Below the pieces are notes generated by a model, which had not been told where the DNA came from, ran no database searches, and saw only the letters and a list, made by a program, of their open reading frames with translations. From the IMG/VR virus record IMGVR_UViG_3300038696_000641, positions 1-54,629 of that record: DNA of 54,629 nt; one strand, given 5' to 3'. The DNA is from a virus. Numbering within the stretch: position 1 is the stretch's first letter; each line of letters opens with the position of its first letter. Of this stretch, positions 1,625-47,744 are shown piece after piece. Position numbers and translations under genes: made by a program.

Positions 1625-2710
1625 TCACCTTTCACCCCTGATCCTCTTTCGATCTTTGATGAGGGGCGGCGGCACAAACCCGACTCCGCCCAGCACCTTG
1701 CCCCTGAGATTGTAGGTGTCCGCATGGCGCGCGTGCCCGACCCACGACATGATCACCGGGTCGATCTCATCCCAAGTTATCAATCCGCGATGGTACTGCG
1801 CCGCCATGCGCCTCATCTTCCGCTTCATCCTGTTGATGCTGTCTTTTCGAAGCGCCCTGTGCGTCGGCCAAATCCGATAGCCAAGGAAGTCCAAGGCGCG
1901 CCCACCGTCACCTATGGGGAAAACCTGCGTTTTGGAGTTGGTGCGGAGGCCAAGCTCGGCCCAGAGGAAGTCCTCGATCGTGCGGCGGATTTGATGCAGG
2001 TGGAACTTGTCGTGGTGAATGATCACAAAATCATCCATGTATCGCGCATACCGCGTCTCACGCAGCGTGTGTTTAACGAAGTGGTCCAGCTCGTGCAGGT
2101 AGATGTTGGCAAACATCTGGGAAGACAGATTGCCAATTGGGATGCCACGCGGGGTCAGTGCGTCGTGGTCCGCCGAGCTGTCAATTATGCTGTCGATCAG
2201 CCAGAGGGTTTCCTTGCATGCGATCTTTTTCCGGATCATGCGCTTGAGCGCATCGTGACAGATCGAGGGAAAATATTTAGAAATGTCAGCCTTGAGCGCA
2301 TAGACCGCACCATGCTTGCGCTTTACCTCGCGGATGTACCTCTGGACCGTATCGACACCCTTGTGGGCACCCTTGCCTTTCCTGCAGGCGAAGCTCTGGT
2401 CGATGAACTGCGCCTCGAATATCGGCTCAATTACGATCGTTAGCGCGTGCTGAACGACACGATCCTTAAGCGGGAGTGATGCAATCTCGCGGCGCTTTGG
2501 CTCGAATATAAAGAACCGATGATACGGGCCTGTCCGATATGTTTTATGGATCAAGCTCTGGTGTATCTCGATCAGGTTGGGCTCAAGGTTGGCGCGAAAG
2601 GCGATAACGTCACGCTGGCGCGTCCGGCCCTTGGCGGTCTTCGCCCAAGCATCGATCAGCGTCTGCCATTCGATGATCTGGGGCCAAAGCGTGTTGAAGG
2701 TCTTAGCCAT
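1625..2710 (-). CDS. DGR-type reverse transcriptase
   Basis: This 361-residue protein is a retroelement reverse transcriptase. The catalytic motif YMDD is at residues 224-227. The preceding motif reads IGNLSSQ (192-198), the (I/V/L)GxxxSQ form typical of diversity-generating retroelements, not the QGxxxSP form of group II introns. No maturase or endonuclease domain is present, as usual for this family. It should copy RNA from the template repeat at 2873-2992 with errors at adenines, and the cDNA replaces the variable repeat at 3419-3538. Gene order (target, Avd, TR, RT) matches Bordetella phage BPP-1. The ATG at 2710 has a GGAA-type ribosome site. Confidence 0.97.
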   Translation of the reverse strand: MAKTFNTLWPQIIEWQTLIDAWAKTAKGRTRQRDVIAFRANLEPNLIEIHQSLIHKTYRTGPYHRFFIFEPKRREIASLPLKDRVVQHALTIVIEPIFEAQFIDQSFACRKGKGAHKGVDTVQRYIREVKRKHGAVYALKADISKYFPSICHDALKRMIRKKIACKETLWLIDSIIDSSADHDALTPRGIPIGNLSSQMFANIYLHELDHFVKHTLRETRYARYMDDFVIIHHDKFHLHQIRRTIEDFLWAELGLRTNSKTQVFPIGDGGRALDFLGYRIWPTHRALRKDSINRMKRKMRRMAAQYHRGLITWDEIDPVIMSWVGHARHADTYNLRGKVLGGVGFVPPPLIKDRKRIRGER

Positions 2711-2872
2711 AATTCCGCACCGGAGTGGCGGCCGGAGTGAGGGGTCGCTGCAAGCAGCTACTGCGACACCCCGGCCTGTTCATGTTTTTCGGCACATGGC
2801 CGAGGATTGCAGGTCCTTTCGAGGGAGCTCTGGACCCGGCCCCATAGGGCTTGGCCTTCTGGCGTTCCCCGG

Positions 2873-2992
2873 AAGCGGGGCGAAAGCCGATGTTCGTGTT
2901 CGCGTTCGACTGGGCATTGTTCAAGTTCAGGGCGAAGACCCCGGCCCTCGAGCCATTGTTCCAGTTGCCACCGCGGATCGGCAGACGCTCAT
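2873..2992 (-). repeat. DGR template repeat (TR)
   Basis: These 120 bases match the variable repeat at 3419-3538 except at 17 positions. At every one the plus strand of TR has T, which is A on the functional minus strand. TR has 25 such adenines; 17 differ and 8 are unchanged. Many are in AAC or AAT codons, the usual design that lets mutation reach many amino acids without making stops. The frame is open through TR but it probably acts as RNA. Its upper edge overlaps the last bases of the Avd gene. Confidence 0.97.
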
Positions 2993-3339
2993 GCATGGCC
3001 CGCATCCCTTACCAGCGACTTGAACCAGCCGCCGATCATGCGCCCCACCTCATCCATGTGGCGGGACCAAATTTCATACTTCTTCAGGTCAATGTAGCGA
3101 AGGGCGAATGCCGTCCTGACTTGGCTGCGCAGCAGGTCAAGTTCTGCGTCCAGATCCTGCATTGTGGTTTTCTTGTGGTATCGCTTGTTCGTGATGATAA
3201 TCAGTCGAAGCACCCCCCACATCGCGTTGCGGATTTCAGCAGCAAGAACATGCCGCTCGAATTTAGGAAACTGCCGCAGCGCAACGTAGCCGTAGGCGAT
3301 CATCTCCTCGCACTTCTGCCTGATCTTCAAGTCTTCCAC
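2989..3339 (-). CDS. avd: Avd-like DGR accessory protein
   Basis: This 116-residue, mostly helical basic protein lies between the target gene and the template repeat, where Avd is encoded in BPP-1-type retroelements. Avd forms a barrel of four-helix bundles that binds the reverse transcriptase and template RNA. The FPKFERHVLAAEIR segment (about residues 24-37) is typical of this family. The start is GTG at 3339 with AAGAGG about seven bases upstream. The stop codon falls at the edge of TR. Confidence 0.88.
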   Translation of the reverse strand: MEDLKIRQKCEEMIAYGYVALRQFPKFERHVLAAEIRNAMWGVLRLIIITNKRYHKKTTMQDLDAELDLLRSQVRTAFALRYIDLKKYEIWSRHMDEVGRMIGGWFKSLVRDAGHA

Positions 3340-3361
3340 GCGCTGCCTCTTTTGGAGTTGT

Positions 3362-3386
3362 AGGGCCCGCGCTATCGCGCGGACCT
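3362..3386. other. Hairpin or cruciform just downstream of the DGR variable repeat
   Basis: A perfect 6-bp inverted repeat (CCGCGC, loop TATC, GCGCGG) at 3367-3382 is extended by further pairs after one mismatch. It lies about 33 bases past the 3' end of VR and 22 past the target stop codon. In BPP-1 and other DGR phages a short hairpin downstream of VR promotes retrohoming. No T-run follows on the minus strand, so a simple terminator is less likely. Confidence 0.6.
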
Positions 3387-3407
3387 CAGATTACAGGTGG
3401 TCAGATG

Positions 3408-4445
3408 TCAGATTACGAAAGCGGGGCGAAAGCCGAAGAACGAGCGCGCGCTCGACTGGGCATTGAACAAGGACAGGGCGAAGACCCCGGCCCTCGAGCC
3501 ATAGGACCAGCGGCCACCGCGGACCGGCAGACGCTCATCACTTAGGTTGATGTAGAAGCCATCACTCTCAATCGGTGCGCCGGGCTGCATCAGGCCGAGG
3601 GCCTTGAGCCGATGGATCGCCGTCTCCGAGGTCCCGTGCGCAACCATGCTGGAGAGCGACGCGCCCGACCCGCACACCAGCGTTCCGTCCGCCGTGCCCG
3701 AGGTGGCATATTTGACGGCCCCCACGGTGCCGGGATCAACCAATGTGCCATCCGAAGCGAGGATGGCCTGCCACGGCCCTGCCGCACTCAGGTCAGTTGC
3801 AGAAAGAGCCGCGTCGTTATTTGGGATGATCTGGATTTCGCCATCAACGATCCGCATCCCCGGCGACCATTCCCAGACGTTTCCGTTCAAGTTCTGGATG
3901 CCAAAGGGTGTGGCTGGGTGGTTCCATGATACCGGGCCTGAGCCTGCACGAATTGTCGTGTGGCCCGATCCGCCCGAGGATGGGTTGCCGCTATCGTTGA
4001 CCCCAAATTCATCGAATGCGTTGTATGCACGGCCGTTGTTGTTGTTGCCGCGAGGGAAGCGGAAGGCGGCGCGGCATTGAAGGGCGATGGCCGCGTACAT
4101 GGCGTTGGTGGCTACGCAGAAGCCGGGGCCGGTGTTGCGCGCCAGCGTGATCGCCTGATCGTGATTGATGGTTGCGCGAGGCACGAGGCCTGCTTGGCTG
4201 ACCATTTCGCCATTGACCTCGGCGGCTTGGTGCACGCCTATCAGGATTTCATCCTTTTCCACGCCACCAACAATGAAGGCGGGGTGCGCCCCTGTGCCGA
4301 AGCCCGCTCCGAGGCTATCGAGCGTGAACTTGCGCAGGCGGTAAAAATAGCTTGGCTGACCCTTGGCGGTGAAGCGCACAGTCAACTGGCCGTTGGACAT
4401 GGTCTCGATCTGATTGCGCAGGGCGGTTTGTATTGCAATGCTCAT
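3408..4445 (-). CDS. DGR-diversified tail-tip protein with C-type-lectin (FGE-like) fold
   Basis: This 345-residue protein is the retroelement's target. Its C-terminal half has the formylglycine-generating-enzyme-like C-type-lectin signature GNVWEW (residues 188-193) and ends GFRPAFVI. The variable repeat encodes roughly residues 303-342. Eleven codons differ from the template: 308, 312, 314, 315, 325, 327, 332 and 334-337, mostly from Asn. The invariant core GSRAGVFAL lies between them. The N-terminal part probably attaches it to the tail fibre, because the gene overlaps the 109-residue gene upstream by four bases (ATGA) in the fibre operon. By analogy with Mtd of BPP-1 it should bind host receptors. 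Confidence 0.93.
   Translation of the reverse strand: MSIAIQTALRNQIETMSNGQLTVRFTAKGQPSYFYRLRKFTLDSLGAGFGTGAHPAFIVGGVEKDEILIGVHQAAEVNGEMVSQAGLVPRATINHDQAITLARNTGPGFCVATNAMYAAIALQCRAAFRFPRGNNNNGRAYNAFDEFGVNDSGNPSSGGSGHTTIRAGSGPVSWNHPATPFGIQNLNGNVWEWSPGMRIVDGEIQIIPNNDAALSATDLSAAGPWQAILASDGTLVDPGTVGAVKYATSGTADGTLVCGSGASLSSMVAHGTSETAIHRLKALGLMQPGAPIESDGFYINLSDERLPVRGGRWSYGSRAGVFALSLFNAQSSARSFFGFRPAFVI
3419..3538 (-). repeat. DGR variable repeat (VR)
   Basis: This is the partner of the template repeat, offset by 546 bases, at the extreme 3' end of the target gene. It has 17 substitutions, all opposite A in TR, all changing amino acids and none creating a stop. The A-free segment at its 3' end (3419-3436) is identical to TR and then diverges, as expected where retrohoming starts (IMH versus IMH*). 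Confidence 0.96.
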
Positions 4446-4771
4446 GCTGTGGGCTCCTCTGCATCCGTCGTCGCAGTCTCTGCTGCAATGAAGAAGCTGT
4501 AGATCAGGGCGTAAATATCACCCTGTGTGACGGTCTGGCCAGTAGCCTCTCCGGTCTCTGGATTTAGGACGGGGACGGCTGCGGCCTGATCAAATGCAAG
4601 CTCGCGTGGCGAGATGGGTTGCGCGAACGCCGCCCCATCGGCAAGGCCGATGACCTGCTCACGATGGAAGGCGACGTTAGGGGGGTGCCCTAGGCGGTTG
4701 TCGATCACCACCTGTGAGCATCGGATATAGGCCTCGCCCGCAACGGGCTTCTGGTCGAGCTTGTAGGTCAT
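4442..4771 (-). CDS. Small tail-fibre accessory protein
   Basis: I do not recognise a family for this 109-residue acidic protein. It lies between the long Ala/Ser-rich fibre gene and the DGR target, four bases after the former and overlapping the latter by ATGA, so it should be made with them. A connector or chaperone between fibre and tip is plausible. An internal segment ALIYSFFIAAE (about residues 87-97) is hydrophobic, but no signal peptide is visible. Confidence 0.6.
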   Translation of the reverse strand: MTYKLDQKPVAGEAYIRCSQVVIDNRLGHPPNVAFHREQVIGLADGAAFAQPISPRELAFDQAAAVPVLNPETGEATGQTVTQGDIYALIYSFFIAAETATTDAEEPTA

Positions 4772-4775
4772 AGCG

Positions 4776-6191
4776 TCATGCCTCCTTGATTGTGCCGTAA
4801 ACAGTGATCCCGCTGGCGGTAATGCGTAGCCGTTCCGATCCAGCGATGGCCACAGACAGGGTGTCTGCCGCCGATGAATAGATGCCAGCCGACCCGATGC
4901 GCAGGGCGGGGTCGGCCAATGTGCCGCCCTTGAGCGCGATTTGACCGCCGTTGATCTGGTCGGAAAGCTGGCCGATCAGCGAAAGCGCTTCGAGTAGCGT
5001 GCGAAGGGTGTAGACGTCGCCCTCTCGGGCAAGACTGAGGCGCTCGACCTCCCTATAGACCTGCCCTAAAGTGGCAGCTAGTTGGCCGATGTTGTTAATC
5101 GCGCCCCCAAGGGACGATTCGGCTTGAACTGCGCTTGCAAGGGCGGCTGCTTCACTCGACCCCGCATTGCTGGCAGATGTGGCGGAAGCAGTTTCGCTTG
5201 CTGCCGCCGCAGACGCACTGGCTGCCGCCGCCGTTTCCGCCGCTTCCGCCGCAGTCGCGCTCGATGCCGCCTCGGTCGCGCTGGACGCTGCATCAGATGC
5301 GCTTCCGGCTGACTGGCTGGCACTGGCCGCAGATGATGTAGCGGATGTAGCAGCGGACGATTCACTGGCACTGGCCGCCGTTGCCGCCTCTTGGGCCGCT
5401 GTTTTGGAGGCTTCCACGGTCGCTGTGCTGGCCGCTGCGTTGCTGGCGGAGGTTGCCGCTGCCGTTGCATCAGAAGCCGCAGCCGTTGCTGACGTTGCCG
5501 CCGCTGTTTGCGCCGTAGATGCTGCCGACGCCGCTGTCTGCGCGGTCCCTGCGTGTGTCGATGCCGTATCCCGCGCTGCTTGCGCCGCGCTGGCCGCGCC
5601 TTGGGCCAAGCCACGATCTGCCGCCGCCTGTGTGCTTGCCGCCTGAGCTTGTGTGAGCGCTGACGACGCACCGGTTTCACTCTGTGCCGCTGATACCTGA
5701 CTGTCAGATGCCGCGTCACGGCTTGCAAGCGCCGCCGCCGCCGATGCCGCAGCACTGGCCGCAGATGTGCTTGCGCCTGATTGAGACGCCGCCGCAGCGG
5801 TTGCACTTGTCGCAGAGGCCGCCGCCGCCGTGTTCGCCCCGTTGCGGGCCGTCTGGGCGTCGACGACCGCCTGTTGCGCCGCGTCAAGCGATGCAGGTGC
5901 AGGTAGATCGATCAGTTGGGCCAGAAATGCCGTGGAAGCGTCCGGCACTGTAACCGTGAACTTCCCAGATCCTTCGCCAGAGTAAGCCGCAACCTTGTAG
6001 GCGCCGGGGATCAACTCAACAGAGAATGTCCCATCCGCGCCCGTGACAACCTCGAAGGGCTCCGGCAAAACAAGCGTGTTGCTTGATCGCGTCACCAAAT
6101 TGGGCTGTAAATAAAAAGTGAGAGTTGCGCCCGCAGATGGGGTGAGCCCCACATCAGCAACGCTACCAGACACATTGCAAACATCTACCAT
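4776..6191 (-). CDS. Ala/Ser-rich coiled-coil tail fibre protein
   Basis: This 471-residue protein has three parts. The N-terminus (about 1-95) is beta-rich and may be the virion-attachment domain. A long stretch (about 100-370) consists almost entirely of Ala, Ser and Thr with periodic charged residues, as in trimeric fibre shafts. A C-terminal domain contains ALRIGSAGIYSSAADTLSVA, typical of fibre tips. The underlying DNA is GC-rich and repetitive, giving long false frames on the other strand. It heads the operon ending in the DGR target and probably carries it. A GAGGGG ribosome site precedes the ATG at 6191. Confidence 0.85.
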   Translation of the reverse strand: MVDVCNVSGSVADVGLTPSAGATLTFYLQPNLVTRSSNTLVLPEPFEVVTGADGTFSVELIPGAYKVAAYSGEGSGKFTVTVPDASTAFLAQLIDLPAPASLDAAQQAVVDAQTARNGANTAAAASATSATAAAASQSGASTSAASAAASAAAALASRDAASDSQVSAAQSETGASSALTQAQAASTQAAADRGLAQGAASAAQAARDTASTHAGTAQTAASAASTAQTAAATSATAAASDATAAATSASNAAASTATVEASKTAAQEAATAASASESSAATSATSSAASASQSAGSASDAASSATEAASSATAAEAAETAAAASASAAAASETASATSASNAGSSEAAALASAVQAESSLGGAINNIGQLAATLGQVYREVERLSLAREGDVYTLRTLLEALSLIGQLSDQINGGQIALKGGTLADPALRIGSAGIYSSAADTLSVAIAGSERLRITASGITVYGTIKEA

Positions 6192-6214
6192 GAGACACGA
6201 CCCCTCAAGAAAAT

Positions 6215-6243
6215 AGGCACAACATATTGTGCATGTTGCGCCT
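6215..6243 (-). terminator. Hairpin before tail-fibre gene (terminator or attenuator)
   Basis: An 11-bp inverted repeat with one mismatch (AGGCACAACAT / ATGTTGCGCCT) and a 7-base loop is followed on the minus strand by ATTTTCTT. It lies between the giant gene's stop (6299) and the fibre start (6191), about 24 bases from the start codon. It could end the giant transcript, or regulate or process fibre mRNA. Confidence 0.5.
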
Positions 6244-6248
6244 ATTTA

Positions 6249-6264
6249 ACACATTATGTGGTGT
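6249..6264 (+). promoter_or_regulatory. Recurring near-palindrome (copy before tail-fibre gene)
   Basis: ACACATTATGTGGTGT matches 12 of 16 bases of the repeated intergenic site. CACAT-T-ATGTG inside it is a perfect palindrome. It is about 60 bases upstream of the fibre start. Weaker than the copies at 32002 and 38418. Confidence 0.35.
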
Positions 6265-6298
6265 CGTGATAGCCCGCCCGCGCGGGATTGGCCCCCAC

Positions 6299-9200
6299 TT
6301 ATTGCGAGATCATCGGCGCCATATTCCCGCGAATGTAGTCCTCTAGGTTTGTATTGAGCAGCACACCACCCGTCATTCGCTGGCTGGTTCGCAACCGCGC
6401 CCTGTAGGATCGCATGATCGTATCATCATCAATTCTGTAGGTTGGCGGGTACTTGGCATTGAACTCCTGCATCCGGCGCAAGGCGCGCTTGCTGATAGGC
6501 TCGCCTTCGCGCATGTATCGCGTGATATCTGAGAGGATTGCTCTGCGCTCGTCCTGAATGGCAGTTTGCATGTTCATCATGCGCCGGTTGGTCTCGTACC
6601 GCTCACTGACGCGGGCCGGTGAGAAGCCAATGGCCTGCACGACTGCATCATGCGCCGAAACGTCATCGAGCAGCGGATCGCCTTTGTAGGTCGTCACGCC
6701 TTCATTGACATACCGGACAGATCGCATTTGGTCGCGGATCGCTTTGGGCACCATCAATTCTGCGCCACGCCAAACCTCGCCGTCGGCCACCAAACTGACG
6801 CCGCGCAGCATATTCAAGCCGATTGCGGGCACAGCACCGAGAAGCTGGTCAACCATGTAGTAATAGGCGTCCCTGCCCTCCAACTGCCGATTTGGGCTGC
6901 GGAACCAAAGCTCGGGCATACCAATCCGCGCGGTCATATCTGTGCCGGTAAGGGTGCCGGGTACACCTTTGAGGATCATGCCGCCTGCGCCGGTCCCGAA
7001 CAGGCCAACAATCGCGCCTTTAAGCTCTTCTTCGGCCTCGTCGGAACCGCCGTCAAAGAACATACCCGCCAAGAGCATCGTTAGGGCATAGCCCCATGTG
7101 CCGGTGATCCCCGCGTGCAGCATCATCGAGCTTGTGATACCAATCAACTGCGTACGCGCCTGCTTGCGCACCTCTGGGCTTTCCCCCTTAAATGCTTGGT
7201 GCGTATCGCGGAAAAGGCGATAGAGCATGTTCACCTGAAACTGGCGAAAGACGAAGGCCACGCGGGTCCAGTCGTCCTGCATGAAGCGCGGACGGGACCA
7301 GTTTTCATAGTTAAAGTGCGTATCCCACGTCAGATCACCAGCTTTCTTCACGGCGGCTTCCTGATCCATTCCCGAATTTTTCGCCATCCGGTAAGCGGCA
7401 AGGAATGTCACCTCACGGTTCAGGCGCTCGGCATGGTGGAACAGGAAAGAAATTGGCCGCATGACTTTTTCGCGCACGGGTGAGTATTGCACGCCGCCGT
7501 CTTGTATTCCGGCAAGATCGTGCGACTCGCTTTTGTCCAGCGCGCCAGACAAATAGGCTTGCTGCAATGCTGCCCGTTCATCGTCTTTCAATCGGCCACT
7601 TGTCAGCGCGCCTCGGCTCCACTCTGCGTCCCCTTTGGAAAGACCCGCTGTGAAGTCTGCCAGCGCACCAGTCAGTGCCTTTGATGCCTTGGCGACCGTC
7701 GCACCTTTGATGCCGGCAACCAAGATCGGGATGCCGACAACGGTTGTCTGGGTCAGGTTTACCACCGCCGCCGCCGGTGTCAGGCCGAGATACCAGACAA
7801 ACGCGCCAGACGTCGCCCAGGCGCTCCACTGCGCGCCGGTGGGGTTCATCGACCAATCATGGCGTTTTTGCATTTCATTGGCGATTGCACCGGCCCGCGT
7901 TGGGTCAGGCGCGTTCTTCGCCTCACGCCGCGCATTTTCAACGTGCTTTGTCAGGTCCATGGCATGCCGCAAGCGTGTCAACTGGTGCGCGCCGTGGAAC
8001 ATGCGGCTACCAAACGCTTTGATCGCGTCCCTGTCGAAGCCGGGTACGCCCTTGCGGTGGATATTGGCCTTGCGGACCGAGAATGAAGGCAGGGTTTCCA
8101 GATACCTCTGGTAGATTGCATCGAGGATCTGGCCGTCCATAGCGACTTCGCCCAGTGCCTCTGCAATATCGGCCACAAAGTTGGGATCAACGAACCGGCT
8201 GACGTCATCTTCGGGCTTCATCACGCCCTTTTCGACCACAAGCCCCTGATCCTGCATCTCCGACGCAATGCGCTGCTGTGCGCCCGCCGTGGATGCCCGC
8301 TCAAAGTGAACCAGCTTGCCCTTGGCGTCCCGCGCCGCGACAAAGAATTGCCCAAAGCGCATCAGCGGGAAGTAGGGCCCGTCGATCCGGTTGCTTTCAT
8401 AGGTCAGGCGCATCTTGCGAATACGCGCGTTCCGGCTGAACTCAAGCATCTTGATATCTTGGTTGTACCGCGACCGCGCCTTCTTGCGCGCCTGCGTTGC
8501 CTCAGCGCCCGTCAGGCCGTCTTCAATGATCTGCTGCAACTCGCCTTCATACCGCGCCTTGAGGCGTGAGGATTGCAATTCCATGGCCTTGGCCACCGCA
8601 TCAACCATCGCGTTGATCAGATCTTCATCGAAAGCCCGATAGCTATCGCGCGCCTTGCGGTAGATATCCTGCATGGCCTCTGGCAACGCATTGAACTTCT
8701 GCTGCATAGACGCATGGCTGCTGCGCTTTTCTTCCACGAAATTCATATATTTGCCGGTGGTCATGTCGGCGGGCCGCTTGGGCCGCTTAAACTTCTCCGA
8801 TGGGTCCATTCCCTCAATCGTGGATTCGTGCATCAGATCGTGCAGCTTTCTGCCGTTCTCTTTGTCCTTGGCGTAGTGACCCTGCCACTCCCGCGCCAAC
8901 ACATCGGCCTCAGCGTGCATTTCCTGCCGCTCCGCCGTCATTTGCCGCATGCTCTGAACCCACTTGGCCGCAGACGGCAGGGCCTTGCCCAGATCACGGA
9001 ACAGCACTTCGCCCGGCACAAGCGCAAGCGAGTTGTTCTTATCGCTGGAAGCCATGGCGTTGGTAAGAAGGTTGCTGACGAAACTGGCCTCTTTCTTGTC
9101 CAATGCCGCATCGGTCTTTGCAGCCTTGGGCGACCACATCTTTGAGATAGACGCCATCAAGGCTGGGTTGTCTGCCGGATCAGCGTTGACCGTATCGAAC

Positions 9201-12200
9201 GTGCCCGATGGGTCTGGATCACGCCCGCCGACTTCGCCTGACCGCACCCGCTCAAAGACTGACGCCGCAGTGTTCATGCCGTTACCTGTCAGGACATTGA
9301 TGATTGCATCCAGAATGTCCTTGAGCTTCTGCATGGCACCGCGCTCCGCTGCCGTCAGGCCGGTATCACGCCCGTCCGCCCACTCGCGGTACATCTCCGC
9401 CACGATTTCCTCGATCTTTGTGGCCTCGGACTTGCCTGCATAGAACTTTTCGACCTGTGCGCGCAGCCGCTTGTTCTTGCGCGCCGCCGCAACAAGTGTG
9501 CGCCATTCCTGTTTGGTGAATGCCCCGTTTTCGCCACCAAACACGTCTTTGCTTCTCAGCGCATGAATGACCTCATGGCGCGCAATGCCCAATGGTCCAT
9601 CCGGTGCCGCCATGGACACGCCGATCACACCGTCAAGGAAGTACCCATCAAGGCTCTCATAGCCTTTCCCGAAGTTGTAGGCTTCATCGTTGAGCGTCAG
9701 CGCAATGCGGCCGCCGGTGGCTTTGCCCACTTCGCGCTCGATCTGGCGCACCGTCTTGTTGATATCGCGCTTTGCTTGTGTCGCGTCTTGGAATGAAGCG
9801 GTCGACGGCTTGGACTGTGATGCACGGAAGTTAGCGCCGCCATCATCATCGAGACGCATTTCCATTGCGTCTTTCGGTGCTGGCGCGCGATCTGGCGCGA
9901 CGGCCTGAGCAACAGCTTCAGCATCATAGATGTTCAGCACGCTCCAATTTGACGTCTGATTGCCTTCATCATCCTTTGTGGCGTTCTCTTGCGCCTCAAT
10001 GATGACAGCCTCACCGGTATCCATGTTTTCTGCTTCAAAGATAGCAATCCGGCCTGTTTTATCAGTCCCTTCAATGCGTCGCGTGCCATTAGGCGCACCC
10101 CAGTCAGATACATACGTCTGGCCAGCGTTCTTGAACTGGATGTTCTCAGTAATTGGTTGGGCTGTATCGTCAGCAATAAGATCGCGCCCTTTGTCATCGC
10201 GTGCAGCAAAGTAGTTTTCGCCAAGCGCGGCATTCTCAGACGCAAACTTGACTTCCTCGACACGCACCAGCGCAGACAGGCGGGCAAGGCGTTCTTCAGC
10301 GTCAATTACCTTTGAACGGTCTACGCCAACATCGAGCAGGCTTTGCATCTGTGGTTTCAGCTCGGCGTGCCGGTTTTGCTCCTTGCTAAAGCGATTTGCT
10401 GCGGCTTCGGCCCGCATAGCAATGTTTTCCGGCGACAGCGCGCGCAACAGCTTGTCCGACTTTCTGAAGTCTTTGGCGGTTATGGAGAAATCATCAGAAA
10501 TGGAAATTTCGTAATCTGCGTTGGGCGGCATCAGGAACGAACGATATCTTACCGCGCCAGTTTGTTGTTTGTCAGCCATCATCGCCACAGACCATCCACC
10601 GCCCATGGCGATGTTGAACCGCTTTGGTTCGGAGTATGTGTTTTCTTGAGCGTCCTTCAGAACATCGTATACTTTGCGCTCCCACCCGCCACTAGGACGG
10701 TCGGTCCAACGTGTCGGGGCAGTTGGCATTTCCGGCAGTTTTTCTTGCTCTTTGCGTGGCTTGCCCTTGTTTCGCTCTCGGATTTCGTCGGCCAGCGCCT
10801 CAAGGCGGGCCTTCTCTTCCCGATACGCGCCTGCTTGAGCGTCCCAGTCGGCCAGGTAGCTGTCAGCGCCATCACCGATCTTATCAACGGAAAAACCTGC
10901 ATAATCATCTGCACGCTCTTTCAGCACACGCTGCCTGCCATCATAGGACTTCATGAAATCCTTGGCTTCGGACAGGTTCCGCAGCTTTGAAGCAATTTCG
11001 GCGCGGGCATTATCCCGGTCTTTCTCGGCCTGCATTTTTTGGAGGAAGATTTCCTTGCCCGTCGATTGCGCCATGAACTCTGCGTATTGGTCGGCGTCAC
11101 CACCTTCTTCAACAATGGAATCGGTAGCCGCATTCATAAACGTCTCGATTGCGGATGCCTTCCGTTCGAGCACCTGCCACTGAACAACGTCAGCGGTTTG
11201 CTCAGTCGAATAGGCGATGATTTCCACTTCAAAATTGTCGGGATCGGCCTGATAGAACTCATTGCCTTGCCGAATAATGCGGCCTTCACGCTGCTCCATA
11301 TCTGATGGACGCCATGGCGCATCGATGTGGTGCAACGCCACCAGCTTCTTTTGCGCGTTTGTACCGGCCCCCATCTTCTGCGTTGATCCAAGAAGCACGC
11401 GGACACGACCTTCATTGACGGCCTCAAAGAGTGCGTTTTTCTGAATGGTGGTGTTGTAATCATGGATGAAGGCAATCTCGTCTTCTGGAACACCCTTTTC
11501 GATCAGCGCTGCGCGCATGTCGTCATAGAACGAAAAGCCGGTGTCTGCCGTGAACATGGATGCCGCGGCATCTTGTGCTGCTTCGCTTTCCATAAATTCA
11601 GTCAGGCTGTCACGCTTCCGTGTCGTCGTGTCGAGGTCATCAATTGCATTTTCGATTTCACCGAGAAGATCGCCCCATATTTCAGCGTAGGTTTTGCCTT
11701 CGCTTTGCTTCAAGCGTGCAGTCAAGTCCGAACCTTTGACGCCAAGCTTCTCATATGCGGACTTTATCACGCGCTTTGCGTCACGTTCCGCAGCCTTGGA
11801 TGGCGCGCTCATGTCGCAGAATACCATCTGCGCGCCTTTGCGCTCTTTGTTCTCTTCCCAAATGCGGAACACTTCTGCTGACGATCGGTCGACCTTCGAT
11901 CCTTCTTCGCGGCCCAGTGTTGGATCGATTGTACGGATATCAACGGACGCCTTGCGCGCGTCTGTGAGTACCCACAAGGCGTTATCGACGGACATATAAT
12001 CCTTGTTGCTCTTGTTTGCCTTGATACCGGCCATGCGCATCACAAGGTATCTGACAAACTCTGTCATTTTCGGCGTCGGTGGCGCCAGACTGATCCTGCG
12101 TGCGCCACCCTTGATTTTGGGTGTCGGGAACCGCGTTGAAACCTGCTTTGCTGGGTCTGGCTGGGCCGCGTTACGCGCCTCCATTTGCTCGGTATACATG

Positions 12201-15200
12201 CGCTCCACGTCAGGCCGCATGACGATATCGCTGAATGAGCGGTAAAGCTGGGACAGCGGGCCAAGGTTGATCATGCCGGACATGATGTTGCGCTCTTTGA
12301 GCTGCATCGATGCCGTGTATTCAAACCGGCTTTCATCCTGAATGAAGCCCGCCTTCCAAGCGTCAAAGCTGCCAATGCCCATAGACTTCAAGGATTCTGG
12401 TATCAGGTACTTCATCATCGAGTAGATTTCGACCAGTGAGTTAGAGATTGGTGTGCCTGTCAGGAAAGCGACACCGGACCCCTGTTGTTCCTGCAATGTG
12501 CGAACCTTCATCAGCATGTCAAACGCGCGCTGGCTGCCGCCAGGGGGGTTCATGCCGACAAGCCGCGAGGCAGTGGTCGTGTATTCAAGGTTCTTGAACA
12601 GGTGCGCCTCGTCAACGGCGAGATAATCAACACCCAAGTCCTTCCATCCAATGATGGAACTGTCCGCCTTTTCGGCCAGCTTGTCATTGAGCTCTTTCAG
12701 CTTGTCGGTCAGTTTATTGAGGCGTGACCCCATCTGGCCTACGCTTCTCCTGCTTTGTCCGCTGGCTCTTGCTTCCTGCATGGCGGCATTGAGCTCTTCA
12801 ATTTGCTCATTGAGATACTTGCGCGATGTGTCTGCATCATTTTCGATCTTTGTGAGCTGCGAGTGACCAATGATCACGGCATCATAGTCGCCTGTCGCGA
12901 TACGGTTGATCAGCTTCGAGCGATTGGCCGGCGCAAAGTCTTTCTCGGTTGGCACAAGAATGTTGGCCGCTGGGTAAAGCTCAAGCCATTCACGGCCCCA
13001 CTGGCCAGTCAGGTGGTTTGGAACCGCGACAACAGCTTTGCGTGTCAGGCCCATACGCTTGCGCTCCATGATCCCTGCAATAGCCGTGAACGTTTTGCCT
13101 GCGCCGACAACGTGATGAAGCAACGTCACCTTGTCTTGGATCATGCGCCATGCGCCATTCTTTTGACTGTTGCGAAGATCAATCTCTGGCGAGTTTCCGA
13201 CCATGCGCAGATAGCGCACCCCTTCATACTTGCGCTCCGTGACCACGTTCATTTTTGCATTGAAGGCATCGATAACCATGCCTGCCCGCTCAGGATTGGC
13301 ATAAGCCCATTCGGGAAACTCTTTTGACATGCGCTCGTATGCGGCGACGGCCTCTTTCGTGGCTTCTTCGTTTTTTACCCGCCTATCACCTTCGGGCGTT
13401 CTGATTGTGTCATATACGACCGGTATCTTGCCTTTGATCGCGTGCTCAAAAATACGACCTGCATCCATGCGCTCGGTCGCAAACTGCTGCCCGAACTCTG
13501 TAAGAGCACCGATCGACCCTGTTTCGACCGAAGCCATGCCAACGGTTTCCTGAATGCTCACTTTCGCGCTGGGGTAGCCCAAGGCTTGCAAGAATGATGA
13601 GAACACCTCTTTTGGTATCCACAACGACCGGATCGATGGTGTGATTTGGTCCTGTCTTTTTGCGGGCGGCATTGCTTTGTTAAGGTGTGGCACATTCTGA
13701 TACATGCCCGCGCTTTCCGCGTCCTTAATCCGCTCCGCCAAGTTTCCAGACAGATAGACCTCTGCAAGCTCATATCGCCCTGTTTTGGGGTTCTTGAAGG
13801 CCATCGGGTCTTGCCCTGCCGTCATTTCCTTTACAACGTCTTCGGTCGATTTCCCTGACAACTCTCCGATTAGGATAGGATCAACATGCCCGCGCTCTGC
13901 CATGGACACATGCAGGCCATCTGCGACGCTTTCCACGCTGTCCGGCATCTTGTGCGGGTAAATCACGCGCTTGCTCAGGATCGGCGCATCTTTGGCCGTT
14001 TCATCATTGACGCCCTTCTTTGCGGGCTTGTAGCCAATCTCCAATGCAAGCTCTGTTCCCACATCGCCCCGCAGAACAGCCTCGTTCTTTGAATTGTTGA
14101 GGTATCCATGCGCCTTTTTGAATTTGCGATACGTTTCACGCAGGGTCCGTCGTTTGCCTTCGAGGATCTGCGGCTCGGCGTCGGCGCGCTCAAGTCCGAT
14201 CAGCTCTTTGGTCTTTTGGCGTAGATCAAGCATAGCGGACAGACGTTGGAAACCATCTGAACCCAGGCGCTTCCGATTCACCTGCTTCTCATAAGTCTCA
14301 AGAGAAGACATAGCCTCCTTGGTGGGCTTTTCCGCAAAGAGAAGGTTGGACAGGTTGTCAGCCATTGCTGCTTCATACTTGGCCTTCTGGGGCATCGGCT
14401 CACTGGCCAGATCGATCAAGCCTGCATCTACGGCGGCATTCTTGGCGCGCTGTTCGATGTTGATCCGGTCCTCAAGCGAAACCTTGGAACGTGCTTTCTT
14501 GGCCGAAATTAACGCGCGGACCTCTTGCACAAGGCGGCCCTTTGCCTCGGCTTCATCCTGCCAGAACGTGTCTTGTGTGACTTCCTCAACGAATGATCCG
14601 TCTCCATCGTTCCGACCGCGTAACACCTTGCCTTTGGCGTCGAGCATCATCTTACCATCGGCAAGCGTCGATGACGTGTCCTGCGCAGTGGTTGCCGCCT
14701 CAAGCGCTTCTTCACGGCTAGGAAGGGTGGCAGTGATACTATCAATCGCCTGATCCAGCGATGCCTGCATATCGCGGCCATCATCATGCAGGGTAAATTC
14801 ACCCTTGCCATTCGGATCGCGCCCACCGGCATACATGGTCCCATCCATGGCCGGACGGCCCAGCATCATATCTGGGTTTGCCGCAAAGTAGCTGTTGATG
14901 CGCGTCCCGTTCGGGCCTTCGACGCCGGTATCGAGCCAGCTTGTGTCGCCCTCGCCTTCGCCTGCTTTGCGTTTCTGAAAAAACACAATGTCGGTTGTGA
15001 CTTGCGTGTTGGCGTTTGCCTCAAACGCTGTGTTCGGAAGGCGGATTGCGCCTAGGAAGTTAAAATCAGGCGCAATGCCGCGACGTGCATCACTGTTGGG
15101 TGTGTCGAGGAAGCGGCTTGTGACCACCATGCTCATGATCCCGCCTTCGCGCAAAAGCTGGCCAGTCTTTGCAATGATGAAGTTGTGAACCTTCATCTTG

Positions 15201-18200
15201 CCCAGATCGGGGTGCATCTTCTTGTTGCCTATTTGCTCCGCGCCAAATGGCGGGTTGCCGATAGCCACATCAAAGGTTGCGCTGCGGAATGGCGCATCCT
15301 GAAAGCCAGTACCGTCAAAGACATTGGCTTGCGGGTACAGGTTCTTTGCGATCATGCCGGTGATCGGGTCGAGCTCGGACGCATACCATTCGGTTTTGGC
15401 TGACAGGTCCGCCGGTTGCAGGCCCAAGAAATTGCCCGATCCGATTGTGGGCTCCAATGCGCGACCACCATCAAAGCCGAAGTTGCGCATGGCGCGCCAC
15501 ATCGCCTTAACCACGACACGCGACGTATAGTGCGCGTCATTGGTGGAACGCATGGCAGCAACGTACTGCTCGCCGCTCAATAGCTGTTTCAGCTCGGCCT
15601 GTGCCTTGCCCCACTGGGTGTTGGTTCCCTTGTGCTTTTCGTCAAAGAGGGTTTTCAGGCCACCCCAGCCGACCCAACGGGCAAGAACGTCTTGTTCTTC
15701 GCGCGTGGCGTAGCGGTTTTCACTTTCGAGTTGAAATACAAGGCGCAACGCCGCCATGTTGGCGGCCAGCTTTTGACCGTCAGTCCCTTCGCCCAGGGCG
15801 AAGTCGTCGGAAATTACATAGTTCGGTTGAGGCGTGCCATTGGGGGCTGATCCGGTGCTGTCAGCACTTGATCCCGGACCGTCGCCCACGCTTCCGCCCT
15901 CGTCATCGACGGCAGGCTCTCCCGCGCCGTCTTCATCATCTTCTCGGCGTCCATCGTTATCCGATCCACTGTCAGGCTGTCCGTCTCCGTCCATTCCTTG
16001 TTCGGTGACTTCGCCTGTAGGTTCTCTTTGACCGCCATCTTGATTTGTAGATTGTTCATCTGGGCCCTCATTTGCGGCCTGATCGGCCTCGCCTGCCTCT
16101 GGTGTATCCGATTCCGTGTCATTTTGCGAGATGGTTTGCTCTTCGGCCAGTGCTGCGCGCACCTCGGCCATAACAGCGGACGCATCATCCATGCCTGAGA
16201 TGTCTTCACCGGCTAGGTCCATGTTGTCGCGCACATGGTTGTAGGCCGCGCGCATGGGCTCTTGTGCCTCACGCATGGAAAGGCCGGTTGTTTCTGCGAA
16301 GTCACGCAGCATTTGGCCGAATTTCTTTGCGCCGCCTTCGATGTAAAGGGCGACAAGCTCACCGCCAAGGATGATGTATTCAGGATCAAGGCCGCTGCTG
16401 GCCTGATTGCGTACCTTTGCGGCAAGTCGTGCTTTCAACTCGGCCGCACGATCCTGCTTTTCCTGTGAAAGACCGGATAGAAGGCCGCTGGTTGCGGGTG
16501 CTGTATCCGCGATAACTGGGCTGTTTGAGGTGTTTTCTGTTTGCGTTGCCGCAGGTGCTTCCGCCCCCTGATCCGTAGCTTTCTCGCGGTCTTGCAAGAT
16601 ATCTGCACGAGCAGAATAGATCCAACCCAGCAAGTCAGGACGTGCCGTTTCGATGTAATCTGTCAGTCCGTCGAGCATGTCGGCGGGCGCGGCCTCAAGC
16701 ACGCGATACACGTCTTGAGAGCGCAGCTTATCAACGCTGTCGGCCGCAACGTTGATCAAGGTTTCATTGGTCGGCTTCGGCTCTGGCGCGGCCTTCTTCT
16801 TAAACGGGAAGTCCAGATTGCCAGAAACCGGCTTGGTGCTGTCGAAGTTGCTGTCAGACGTGCTTTCCAGCCATGCCTTGAGCTGGGCAACGCTGCCCTC
16901 GAAGAATGCGCCAATACGCTCGTCAGCGCGACCATCATTGAAAGCGCCACGATAGGCTGTCAGTGCGGCCCCGCGCGAAGGGAAGCCAACCATGATCTTG
17001 TGTTCATCAAACTTGCCGCTGTCCGCGTCCGCCTGGTCGATCCACATGACGTAATCAGCATCGGGTGCCTCGCCCATGTAGAAATCAACATGCTCGCCGT
17101 CTGCACCTTCGGTCTGCTTGAAATAGCCATAGTGCGCGGGCATGGTCACGGACCACGTTTCGCCGTCCTGATCGGTCCCGCTGCGCTCACTGCCCTTGGC
17201 GTTCTCGATAGTCAGGTTCATGCCATTCCAGATGATATGGCCCTTTTGATAGTTTCCGGCTTCTTTCTGCCCGTCCGTTGGGTTCGGGTCGGCATCAGCC
17301 GCCGCTGCATCGACATCTTCTTTGGCGGGTGGCGTGAGGGGCTGCCCAATACGCTTGCGACCGCCCCGCTCACCACGATTGGCCTGCTCTGCGGGATCAT
17401 CAAAGAGCATCGGCACACCGTCGCGGTATGTCAGGGTAGGATCGCGCTCGATCATGTCTATGAGGCTGCCAAGTTGCTCGTCACGCAGGTTTGCCGACGA
17501 TGCAATCAATGCGCCCATATCGCGCGCCAGTGTTTCCAGCTTTGCGCTGTTGATTGAGAGACGCGCTATTGCGCCATCCAGCTTGGTCACTTGCAGCTGC
17601 TTTGGTGTGACCTTCAGGACCGTCCCATACCCGGGCAACACGTCGCCTTCTTTGGCGTTGGCAAGCGCGATATTGCCAAGGCTCAAGTCGCTGCTGTCAC
17701 CAATGCCGTTTACCGGCGCATCGACGCGGGCTTTGCTTATGCCCAGCTTGCGGTTGGGGTAATCAACAGAACCAGAACTGTCCTTTACTTGATTTTTGCC
17801 AGTATCGTTATTATCTCTCTTTGTGCCGCGCCCGGGCAGCGGAGCCATGCTGCCCCATAATTCACTGAGAGTGCCTGTAAACTTTTCAGCGAGACGCGGC
17901 GCTCCTTTATCGTATGAACCAATTAACCACGCGCCTGATTGCCCATCCCAGTCAAGGCGAACACCGGCACGATCTGAGTCGCTTTCAAGCTGAATGCGAT
18001 TTTCGGTTTTGCTTGTAACTGTCATGCGTGAAATACGCCCTTGCAGGTCATCCAGAACCTCTGGGTGCCACGCAATCAACTTAGATAGCCCGTATCCATC
18101 ACTACGGCGCGTTCCGGCCTTGCCCCAAACGAGCGATATATCCCCTACATCGCGGTGATTAAGCGCGCCTGTTGCCTCACCAGTCTGCCTGCGCTCCAGC

Positions 18201-25098: not shown

Positions 25099-25467
25099 TT
25101 ACTCCGGCGGCGTGGGCCAAACCACACTTGCGGGGAAGCCCTCTTGTGCCGGAATGTCCCGCAACGCTTGGCGGTAGATTGCCCATGCGGCTTGATCGAC
25201 GGGCGCATCTGCAACCTGCGTCCAGTCGGATGCGGTGAGGAGGTTGTCACGTTTCGCGCGGGTTTCGGCGGCCAGAACTTCAGCTGGGTCTGGCGTTGGT
25301 GGCGCAATGAATGGCTCGGCTGAGTGTTCGAGGTTAGCAAAGAGCTCGCGACCCAATGGTTCCACATCATTGGGTGACGCCGTGAACGGTATCCATCCGT
25401 AGGAGGGATGATTGATTTCGCAGTCAATAGTGGCCTGCGAGGTATAGATCGGGTTGCGCGTTTCCAT
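25099..25467 (-). CDS. Tail fibre assembly chaperone-like protein
   Basis: The C-terminal half of this 122-residue protein carries the pattern RDNLLTASDWTQVADAPVD, then AWAIYRQALRDIPAQEGFP and VVWPTPP. This is characteristic of small proteins encoded after phage tail fibres and grouped as tail assembly chaperones. The start at 25467 is preferred because it overlaps the fibre gene's stop (TAATG) and has AAGGAT eight bases upstream; a TTG at 25485 would lengthen it by six residues. It should help fold or mount the fibre from 25467-26348. Confidence 0.75.
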   Translation of the reverse strand: METRNPIYTSQATIDCEINHPSYGWIPFTASPNDVEPLGRELFANLEHSAEPFIAPPTPDPAEVLAAETRAKRDNLLTASDWTQVADAPVDQAAWAIYRQALRDIPAQEGFPASVVWPTPPE

Positions 25468-26348
25468 TATGAAATCCTTAGCCAAAGCGTTGCACTGGTA
25501 TACACTGTGTCGGGCCCTGAATCCTCATCTCTTACGGTAGTGTCTGCAAACCCAAGGCAACGCCACGTTCCAGCGGGACTTGACCCGTTGAATGTACCTC
25601 TTGAGTTTGAAGGCTCTAGGCTTGATCCTGCCCTTGTTGTCCCAAATGGGATGTCGCCTACAACTTGGAAAAACCCATACGTCCCAAATGGGATGTCGCC
25701 TACAACTTGGAAAAACCCATACGTCCCAACTGCGCCCGCTGTAGCGCCAGCAATAGCTGACAACACATCAGGCGTGGTTGGTGGTATCTGGGCTGGACTT
25801 AGAGCCTCAACAGCAGCCTTCACCTTAGCCGGACTCAGAACGCCCTCTTGTGTGCCCGTGCCCGCTTCCCATGCGGCTATGTCCTGGGTCGCGCCGCTGA
25901 TCCGCAAAGAGCCATCTACAAAATCAACGCTCAGGCCGGTCCCTGTAAGAATGCTACCTGTTTTGCTATCCAGTTGCGCTTGAATAGGGCTGGTCACGCC
26001 ATCGAGGTGGTTCACTTCTTCTGTCGAGACTGTCGCGCCGTCCAAGATGTTCAATTCATCAGTGGTTGCCGTCAGGCCAAGGTTTTCCAGCGCGGCATCG
26101 CTATCAGCCAAGTCGGACAGGTTTGCGGACTTGGCGGCGGCACCATTGGCGGCGGCTGCAATTGCCGTAAAAGACTGTTCGAGCGGATAGGCTGGCAAGC
26201 TGGTGAAAGCCGTTGTGCCATCCCCAATGCGCAAATTGCCGGTGTCGGTTTCCCATGCGGGTTCTCCATCCAGCAACACAGGGTTTGCTGCCGTCCATTC
26301 GGCGGCTGTGCCACGCCGCAAAAGGATGCGTGCTTTAATGTCGGCCAT
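25467..26348 (-). CDS. Second tail fibre/tail spike protein
   Basis: The N-terminus has the common phage fibre motif ILLRRGTAAEWTAANPVL...DGEPAWETDT...RIGDGTTAF (about residues 8-49). Repeats of ELNILDGATVSTEEVNHLDG type (about 97-117) follow, as found in fibre shafts. The C-terminus is beta-rich and ends WLRIS. A tandem duplication of 14 residues occurs at about 206-233. The gene is independent of the DGR fibre module at 3408-6191, so this phage may display two kinds of fibre. The following gene encodes a probable assembly chaperone. Confidence 0.8.
   Translation of the reverse strand: MADIKARILLRRGTAAEWTAANPVLLDGEPAWETDTGNLRIGDGTTAFTSLPAYPLEQSFTAIAAAANGAAAKSANLSDLADSDAALENLGLTATTDELNILDGATVSTEEVNHLDGVTSPIQAQLDSKTGSILTGTGLSVDFVDGSLRISGATQDIAAWEAGTGTQEGVLSPAKVKAAVEALSPAQIPPTTPDVLSAIAGATAGAVGTYGFFQVVGDIPFGTYGFFQVVGDIPFGTTRAGSSLEPSNSRGTFNGSSPAGTWRCLGFADTTVRDEDSGPDTVYTSATLWLRIS
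25639..25722 (-). repeat. 42-bp perfect tandem duplication in tail fibre gene
   Basis: A 42-base unit (25639-25680) is repeated exactly at 25681-25722, followed by the first seven bases of a third copy. It encodes GTYGFFQVVGDIPF twice and keeps the frame. Exact identity implies a recent event. Confidence 0.9.
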
Positions 26349-40648: not shown

Positions 40649-40814
40649 CGTCCTGCTCCATAGCCCTGTAAACACGGTTGGTCATTGCGCTGATGCCCGA
40701 TCTGGACAGCCCAAAGGTCTTGGCAAGCTGTTGCGTTGAAATACCCAGCGCGCGACCTTCCAAAAGGCGAAGAAGGCGCTCGTCTTCCTCTCTGGTTTTG
40801 GGCTGGATGCTCAT
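40641..40814 (-). CDS. Small helix-turn-helix DNA-binding protein
   Basis: This 57-residue protein starts MSIQPKTREEDERLLRLLEG and continues with ISTQQLAKTFGLSRSGISAM, a clear helix-turn-helix (QLAKTFGLSRSGI). It resembles sigma-factor-like or GcrA-like short DNA-binding domains. Its ATG overlaps the methyltransferase stop (ATGA). A regulator made together with a DNA methyltransferase could respond to or control methylation of the phage genome, but that is speculation. Confidence 0.7.
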   Translation of the reverse strand: MSIQPKTREEDERLLRLLEGRALGISTQQLAKTFGLSRSGISAMTNRVYRAMEQDDG

Positions 40815-41983
40815 GCCATGTCCTCAATCATTTGAATGCGCGTTCCGATCCAGCGCATGCAGTTGACGGCCATTGAGTTGCCTAGTGCCTTGTAACGCGG
40901 CCCGCCTGGGCATTGATCCGCAGGCTTGCCGCACCAAGGTATCTGTGTGTGGTGGTCTGGAAAGCCCTGGAGGCGCTCGCACTCCACGGGCGTCAGGCGG
41001 CGCACAGCCCATGCAAAATCCGCAGCGAAAGCAATGGCCTGCGTTTGCGGGGATGATGCCCCCAGCGGGCCAGTGCGATCACCAGTCACTTCAGGGTCTT
41101 CTCTGCTGTTGAACGCGATCAGGTCCGTTGCGTCCTTGTGGTCGCGGGCCTTTACCGTTGATGCCGTGCCATCATCAGAATATTCGCCAAAGGCGGTCAT
41201 GCGAGCGGCAATCACAGGGTCTTGCCCTCTTGTGTCTCCGGCGCGTTCAACACCTCGGCCACTTGCTGTAAGGCTTGGCGCAATGTTGGCGGCAAGTCCT
41301 TTCCCCGCTTTTCGGCACGGTTGAGTATCCCAGCGCAGGCTTTCTGGCTCAAATAGTACCGCTGCGGAACGGCGCCAGTCACCAAGATATCCGACAACGA
41401 ACACACGCCGGCGTCTTTGAGGGACAGCCCGTCCAATCCCGTCCACTCGCACGTATTGAGCGTCAAGCACGCGGTAGGCAAGGCCGTAGGCGTCACCGAT
41501 ACCTGCAACGATTCCGCTGTTCTTCCATCCTTCGGCTGGGACTGCGACTTTCGTCCCGCTGAGGTCGCCCAGAAATCGCGCAAAGTCTCGTCCTTCGTTA
41601 CTGGACAAAACGCCGGGGACGTTTTCCCAAACGATCCAGTTGGGGCGGTATCGAGCAGCAGTCTCGATATAGGTAAGGGTGAGGCTTCCTCGATCGCCAG
41701 CCATGCCCGCGCGAAGTCCTGCCACGGAGTAATCTTGGCAAGGGGTTCCTCCAACAAGAACGTCGATTGCATGGTCGGGCCACTCCTTAAAATTTGTCAT
41801 ATCACCGTAATTCGGGACACCGTTTCCGGTCACAGGTTCATCCGGCATGTTGCTGCCGTAGTGATGCGCCAGAACAGCCGATGGAAACTTTTCGATTTCG
41901 CTGAAAAACGTGGGAGTCCACCCCAGTGGGGACCATGCTTGAGAAGCAGCCTCAATCCCCGAGCATACAGATCCATACCTCAT
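40811..41983 (-). CDS. C5-cytosine DNA methyltransferase
   Basis: This 390-residue enzyme shows the standard motifs: SVCSGIEAASQA (I, residues 5-16), GGTPCQDYSVAG with catalytic Cys82 (IV), ENV at 120-122 (VI), QRRRR at 189-193 (VIII), a target-recognition region (about 200-320), RLTPVECERLQGFPD (IX) and ALGNSMAV (X). It should transfer methyl to C5 of cytosine and may protect phage DNA from host restriction. No cognate nuclease is adjacent, so it is an orphan. Confidence 0.93.
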   Translation of the reverse strand: MRYGSVCSGIEAASQAWSPLGWTPTFFSEIEKFPSAVLAHHYGSNMPDEPVTGNGVPNYGDMTNFKEWPDHAIDVLVGGTPCQDYSVAGLRAGMAGDRGSLTLTYIETAARYRPNWIVWENVPGVLSSNEGRDFARFLGDLSGTKVAVPAEGWKNSGIVAGIGDAYGLAYRVLDAQYVRVDGIGRAVPQRRRRVFVVGYLGDWRRSAAVLFEPESLRWDTQPCRKAGKGLAANIAPSLTASGRGVERAGDTRGQDPVIAARMTAFGEYSDDGTASTVKARDHKDATDLIAFNSREDPEVTGDRTGPLGASSPQTQAIAFAADFAWAVRRLTPVECERLQGFPDHHTQIPWCGKPADQCPGGPRYKALGNSMAVNCMRWIGTRIQMIEDMA

Positions 41984-46706: not shown

Positions 46707-47038
46707 TATTCGCGGCCCTCGATCTGCTTGAAGACGATTTCAGCACCGGCGACGGCAAGGACGGCAGCGACATACTTGAGGCTGGCGTCGTTCTCCTCAC
46801 GCAACCAGTTGCGCACCTGACGCGCACTTACGCCAAGGACAGGCGCAGCCTTGTTGGCCAAGTCGTTTTCGGATTGCGAAGGGAAAGCACGCCACAGGAG
46901 GTCACAAAACCAGCGGCGCGATTTAGAACCAGAGATCGAATTGGAAATACTTTTCCGATCCGGTCGGATACTTTCGACACATGAATCATATCTTTCGATA
47001 CGCGACAGGTGAATGCGGGGAACGTGTTGGTAGCTCAT
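46706..47038 (-). CDS. Probable HTH regulator, 110 residues
   Basis: The N-terminal 45 residues are Ser/Arg-rich and probably flexible. The C-terminal part contains NDLANKAAPVLGVSARQVRN followed by WLREENDASLKYVAAVLAVA, which reads as a helix-turn-helix (APVLGVSARQVRNWL). It overlaps the GIY-YIG gene by four bases, just downstream of the Cro-like gene, where lambdoid phages encode CII-like activators. A regulatory role is inferred. Confidence 0.6.
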   Translation of the reverse strand: MSYQHVPRIHLSRIERYDSCVESIRPDRKSISNSISGSKSRRWFCDLLWRAFPSQSENDLANKAAPVLGVSARQVRNWLREENDASLKYVAAVLAVAGAEIVFKQIEGRE

Positions 47039-47520
47039 GCGGCATCTCCGGTGGGCTTTGGTTTTTCAGTGCTTTCACCAACAAGGTCGCGCATCTTGCT
47101 GCGGACCTTTTCGACGGTTTCAGGCCAGACACGCTTGCCAGAGCGAAGGCGTTCATAAAACTTACCGCCCTGTCCCACACGGGCTCCCATAGTCGTAATG
47201 GAGATACCGAGGCCGCTAGCTGCCGCCTGCATTTCATCAGCCAAAATGGCGGACACCGCGTTCGGTTCGGCTGGATCGACGTTTCGAATGGCGCGATGCT
47301 GGATATTGTAGCGAGGTTTTTCGGTCTTAATCGCCAACGCCTCCGCGGCGAGCGCAGCATTACGGCAATCGAACCATGTGATTTCAGACCGGCAAACCAA
47401 TGCGTGCCAATCGACCCGCGCTTGATGCTCTTCTTGGCGCTGCTGCAACCTGCAAGTCATACCGATGTAAAGAAGCGCGCCATCTTTATCGAAGTGGCGA
47501 TAGAGGGAGACTCTGGTCAT
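47035..47520 (-). CDS. GIY-YIG nuclease with C-terminal HTH-like domain
   Basis: The ATG at 47520 overlaps the Cro-like gene's stop (ATGA) and gives 161 residues. The N-terminus SLYRHFDKDGALLYIGMTCR (5-24) is a GIY-YIG nuclease fold with LYR as GIY and LYIG as YIG, followed by RLQQRQEEHQ and W/H residues. The C-terminal half contains GLGISITTMGARVGQGGKFY, an HTH-like region as in phage repressors. A nuclease fused to a repressor-like domain and coupled to the switch gene is unusual. Confidence 0.75.
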   Translation of the reverse strand: MTRVSLYRHFDKDGALLYIGMTCRLQQRQEEHQARVDWHALVCRSEITWFDCRNAALAAEALAIKTEKPRYNIQHRAIRNVDPAEPNAVSAILADEMQAAASGLGISITTMGARVGQGGKFYERLRSGKRVWPETVEKVRSKMRDLVGESTEKPKPTGDAA

Positions 47521-47744
47521 GCCGCGCCCTCTTTTTTTAGCCATGCGGCGGGCGGAACACTACCGCCCGTCGCGTCATTAATCTTGGTGATGGTTTTCCA
47601 ACCCGGAGTAGCCGCGCCACTCAAAATCTCAGACAGATAGCTGCGAGAGATACCAAAGACCTCCGCCCACTCTTCTTGAGTGCGCTTGATTTTGGAGTTT
47701 GTGATGTATTGGTTCAATGTCTGCATGACGGCTTTGTCGAACAT
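47517..47744 (-). CDS. Cro-like XRE-family regulator
   Basis: This 75-residue protein is a helix-turn-helix domain with QEEWAEVFGISRSYLSEILS (about 23-42) as the DNA-binding unit. It is the first gene of the leftward early operon and diverges from the CI-like gene, with an operator at 47735-47751 covering its own start codon. By analogy with lambda Cro it should act when the lytic programme begins, possibly repressing the rightward repressor gene. Confidence 0.8.
   Translation of the reverse strand: MFDKAVMQTLNQYITNSKIKRTQEEWAEVFGISRSYLSEILSGAATPGWKTITKINDATGGSVPPAAWLKKEGAA

Follow-up and report, generated by a model that had tools for sequence, protein, structure and literature searches.

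The window analysed here is a 54,629-base linear virus contig from IMG/VR (IMGVR_UViG_3300038696_000641), a record that may be incomplete. Positions 1625-4445 on its minus strand almost certainly form a complete diversity-generating retroelement (DGR) of the BPP-1 type, which would act by adenine-mutagenic retrohoming onto a target protein with a C-type-lectin fold, probably a fibre cap. All parts of the element, the adenine-only divergence of its repeats, the fold of its target, covariation in its RNA and variation confined to the variable repeat (VR) in sister contigs were seen directly. The preliminary description of this DNA had placed a complete leftward DGR in BPP-1 order here, and every part was found, with the coordinates exact. 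In that order the strand carries the target gene, VR, a hairpin, the gene for the accessory protein Avd, the template repeat (TR), a spacer RNA and the reverse transcriptase (RT).

The mechanism itself is already known, and the anatomy of the element argues strongly for carrying it over from BPP-1. RT and Avd would copy the TR-spacer RNA into complementary DNA (cDNA), placing random bases opposite template adenines, and the cDNA would then replace the VR at the 3' end of the target gene while the TR stays unchanged. Replacement would be guided by the GC-rich end of the VR together with the hairpin behind it. In this way some 15 residues of the target's ligand-binding face could be varied, so that the phage might try new host receptors.

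Repeats, hairpin and spacer RNA

The TR (2873-2992, minus strand), which overlaps the last 4 nucleotides of avd, aligns without gaps to the VR (3419-3538, minus strand) over 120 bp, and all 17 mismatches between them fall at TR adenines. Given that 25 of the 120 TR bases are A, the chance of such a result with randomly placed mismatches is about (25/120)^17 = 3e-12, and an identical TR/VR scan of shuffled 6-kb sequence returned zero hits. The VR encodes residues ~304-342 of the 345-residue target, at its extreme C-terminus. In the target frame 15 codons bear adenines, and 11 codons are changed, every one of them non-synonymously. The 24 adenines within the 39 complete TR codons are distributed 13/11/0 over the three codon positions; because none lies at the third position, mutagenesis cannot turn the AAC and AAT codons into stops. 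Towards its 3' end the VR is rich in GC and has no A, which fits a region resembling the initiation of mutagenic homing (IMH) sequence.

Homing in BPP-1 requires a stem of 7-10 bp with a GRNA loop located 4-34 bp from the VR (PMC3240598). The hairpin (or cruciform) at 3364-3385 (minus strand), with a GC-rich 9-bp stem containing one G-T pair and a GATA loop of the GRNA type, lies 33 nucleotides past the VR core and corresponds to this element. GRNA-type loops on altered stems were present in 13 of the 15 relatives examined, and a hairpin of the post-VR type was absent behind the TR. As a separate observation, locus L048 carries at 4699-5868 a 613-bp near-perfect direct repeat spanning the VR-to-TR stretch, as though the DGR region had been duplicated.

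Between TR and RT, the spacer (2711-2872, minus strand) is the structured part of the TR transcript and coincides with a match to the Rfam family RT-14 (RF02921) at 2730-2875 (minus strand). RT-14 also matches the equivalent spacers in 7 of the 14 relatives scanned, and the equivalent spacer in BPP-1 is the Rfam family Phage_DGR. In an alignment of 21 spacers, both partners change in 15 of the 20 consensus pairs, giving a covariation score of 0.70 versus 0.23 after shuffling and 0.11-0.16 with slid partners. Folding of the window spacer as a single sequence was not unusual (z -1.1), and the comparative test alone is informative. The spacer match, its recurrence in relatives and the covariation thus make RT-14, an orphan Rfam family, look like the spacer RNA that follows the TR in this DGR lineage. 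Tying RT-14 to DGR RNA would aid both the finding of DGRs and the study of how RNA primes mutagenic cDNA synthesis.

Activity, target and reverse transcriptase

Related contigs with the same TR and different VRs, a check proposed in the preliminary description, were found in the sisters L002-L005 and L119, which are 77% identical to the window in RT (where complete) and 88% in Avd. The TR is identical across these five and every VR is different. The near-identical pair L002 and L003 has 19 differences in 12,250 bp, 15 of which lie in the VR, all 15 at TR adenines (the binomial p of ~1e-29 was computed for 15/16; 15/19 leads to the same conclusion). L002-L005 are near-identical around the DGR and diverge abruptly at differing outer points, which suggests recombination or assembly breaks.

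Several points weigh against an active BPP-1-type element that varies a fibre tip. The RT-14 score in the window is barely over threshold (49.1 versus 48.1 bits), and L004 and L005 each contain one non-adenine mismatch between VR and TR. The searches returned no contig nearly identical to the window phage, leaving its own VR variation unseen, and the tail tip is a probable location for the target, deduced from gene position and fold. The non-adenine mismatches in L004 and L005 are consistent with ordinary mutation or with the repeat boundary. Active mutagenic retrohoming in the window phage is inferred from sequence-level signs in the sisters L002-L005 and L119; a phage collection searched with the first 25 kb of the window returned no relatives at the DNA level. 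A DGR intact in sequence but now silent, its VR diversified in an ancestor and since fixed, would fit the single VR state known for the window phage and the lack of close contigs in the searches. By contrast, no component of the element (RT, Avd, TR, spacer RNA or hairpin) shows damage, present-day sisters with this arrangement do vary, and variants were detected at 70% of VR loci in a large survey (PMC8144416). We therefore regard silence as unlikely.

The target (3408-4445, minus strand; 345 residues) had been expected to adopt a C-type-lectin fold, and the AlphaFold model (pLDDT 95.4, pTM 0.94) bears this out, placing it in the formylglycine-generating-enzyme subtype. The model superimposes on TaqVP (PDB 5vf4) with Z 50.2 and 1.7 A over 336 residues at 44% identity, and the sequences match as full-length homologues (E 1e-73). 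TaqVP belongs to a prophage DGR of Thermus aquaticus, where it is the variable protein (PMC6328139). The target also matches phrog_2889. TvpA and Mtd were matched at Z 13-15, among other proteins with the same fold; Mtd was rejected as a homologue of the target, the similarity being at fold level only.

By position and fold, the target is probably a receptor-binding tip capping the tail fibre, with a ligand and a capacity for receptor switching that are presumed along with this role. The structure matches also include the enzymes formylglycine-generating enzyme (FGE), PvdO and EgtB, and the link to the fibre is positional, so the target might instead be another variable surface or virion protein, for instance a decoy or an FGE-fold enzyme. 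Against this, the target gene follows the fibre gene and the two travel together between phages, the protein matches the phage tail-protein family phrog_5302, and enzymes of the fold leave the hypervariable C-terminus unexplained. We consider a role away from the tip improbable, marginally more so than silence of the element.

Avd (2989-3339, minus strand; 116 residues, GTG start) matches the curated NCBIfam model NF033474 at 127 bits, over a cut-off of 80, as well as bAvd. The RT (1625-2710, minus strand; 361 residues) matches RVT_1 and, at E 5e-148, phrog_1423, and has a YMDD active site and the IGNLSSQ motif as in DGR RTs. Its nearest solved structure, at E 4e-68, is 8ub7, which we take to be the BPP-1 DGR RT (the database table labels the entry just 'reverse transcriptase'), while the best group II intron RT reaches only E 1e-25. 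A tree built from 53 RTs puts the DGR enzymes on one side of a branch (96/98), separate from group II introns (95/90) and retrons (100/100), in agreement with the DGR-type RT first proposed, and the window RT falls in a seven-member DGR subclade with support 100/100. Neither outcome that the preliminary description had named as refuting its reading was observed: the RT does not group with group II introns or retrons, and near-identical sister contigs do differ in their VRs. The rival view, that the RT comes from a group II intron, a retron or a defence system and that the repeat arose by chance or ordinary duplication, could point to a weak TIGR04416 match (153 bits, cut-off 300) and to retron and DRT models likewise below their cut-offs, and is refuted, at a negligible remaining probability, by the failure of every such profile to reach its cut-off, the separation of the classes in the tree, the presence of Avd and the location of all mismatches at adenines.

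Phage backbone and proposed cassette exchange

At the low end of the contig, transcription on the minus strand runs from a giant protein gene (6299-21046) through the fibre gene (4776-6191), a small gene (4442-4771) and the target gene to avd and the RT gene. The Ala/Ser-rich fibre protein (471 residues) matches tail-protein families and is the probable stalk for the target; its C-terminal part accompanies the cassette. The small protein (109 residues) is perhaps a linker or chaperone, and its gene adjoins that of the target also in L002-L006, L010, L114-L123 and others.

The giant polyvalent protein and the CI/Cro-type switch reported in the preliminary description are both present. The former (4915 residues) contains pyrophosphatase-type, methylase, SNF2/helicase and LPD39 domains and is related to the DarB-like protein of Bcep22-type phages, and the latter corresponds to a divergent pair of CI/Cro-like helix-turn-helix regulators (47517-47744, minus strand; 47820-48116, plus strand). 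No integrase was found in the part of the window's open reading frames that was scanned, in a linear record that may be incomplete. The P22-like portal is 47-54% identical to those of PEp14, Atu_ph08, PBC5 and BcepIL02, the major capsid protein (MCP) is 57-60% identical to those of BcepIL02 and Atu_ph08, and TerL is related too. As judged by these proteins, the window phage belongs with the Bcep22-type podoviruses (Lessievirus-like). All Bcep22-like phages compared encode a DarB-like giant protein, and JC1 lysogenises its host (PMC9144972). Since a giant DarB-like protein and lysogeny are the norm for this type, in which a CI/Cro-like pair is to be expected as well, the novelty first suggested for the whole set holds only for the pairing of the DGR with this backbone.

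That pairing was looked for in several ways. DGR RT is absent from BcepIL02 and Atu_ph08, and the full text of the JC1 paper does not mention a reverse transcriptase (PMC9144972). Within a set of 31 related records from IMG/VR, many being fragments, one contains a DGR RT; in this record, G046 (portal 52%), the giant protein was looked for and not found. The giant protein was not found either in those DGR-cassette relatives whose records were searched whole. L002-L006 are without the window portal and share with the window the fibre C-terminus and small gene upstream of the DGR. Among the matches listed, described phages with the giant protein and those with a DGR RT shared no accession except in Streptococcus, where the RT lies inside the giant-gene match and is annotated as retron-type. 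By titles and abstracts, none of the four papers found to join 'diversity-generating retroelement' and 'polyvalent protein' describes such a phage. An IMG/VR search for relatives of the giant protein added a single contig, the 96-kb record L216, which is nearest by the C-terminus of the giant gene; there the giant gene runs directly into a lysis-like region, and no fibre or DGR match was found after it.

On these partial co-occurrence lists, a DGR on a Bcep22-type backbone with the giant protein appears to be an unusual pairing. The simplest reading of the sequence comparisons is that fibre tip and DGR move as a cassette, loss in relatives being the alternative. The G+C content of 1625-6191, 60.5% versus 56.9% for the whole window, may be a weak hint of acquisition. 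We think it likely that everything from fibre C-terminus to RT forms one exchangeable unit, an 'evolvable tail-tip' module moving between unrelated virion types, that it is newly placed here behind the giant DarB-like gene in a phage of the Bcep22 type, and that RT-14 is the TR-spacer RNA of its lineage. The window adds a clean DGR to a phage type without any among the records listed, with close sisters that show natural VR-only variation, and suggests an exchange of tail-tip DGR cassettes among virion types.

Other features were noted alongside. The DGR of G046 (locus L194, a 64-kb record behind L086) is distant, with an RT of 38% identity, an Avd and a 121-bp TR/VR pair with 17 A-only mismatches. 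A separate fibre-like protein of the window (25467-26348, minus strand) has an Mtd N-terminal domain (PF18454) and is not the DGR target; a stretch similar to it lies immediately upstream of the cassette's fibre part in L006/L126 and L116. Locus L200, on an Ideonella dechloratans plasmid, carries at 5388-8787 a DGR with two avd-annotated genes and two adjacent RT-type genes, by a phage tail region. Elsewhere the window encodes C5 cytosine methylase-like (40811-41983, minus strand), GIY-YIG-like (47035-47544, minus strand) and HNH endonuclease-like (51387-51752, plus strand) proteins.

Comparison with known systems

A close counterpart in layout is the BPP-1 DGR (mtd, bbp7/avd, TR and brt, all leftwards), which the window element resembles in gene order, strand and position at the end of a late operon, in an RT of 40% identity, and in its GRNA-loop hairpin behind the VR, adenine-only divergence and possession of a spacer RNA. 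It differs in that the window spacer matches RT-14 rather than Phage_DGR, and the window virion genes gave no BLAST match to BPP-1. TaqVP provides a full-length homologue of the target with its VR likewise at the extreme C-terminus, although host and phage are different and the window target is shorter (345 versus about 381 residues). The Bcep22-type phages (Lessievirus and kin: BcepIL02, PEp14, Atu_ph08, PBC5 and POI1126) share portal, MCP, TerL and the giant DarB-like protein with the window, which differs from BcepIL02 and Atu_ph08 by its DGR. By contrast, the IMG/VR cassettes L002-L006 and L114-L126 share the DGR itself (RT 72-82%, Avd 84-91%, target 57-81%) as well as the small gene and fibre C-terminus upstream of it, and carry it on other phage backbones.
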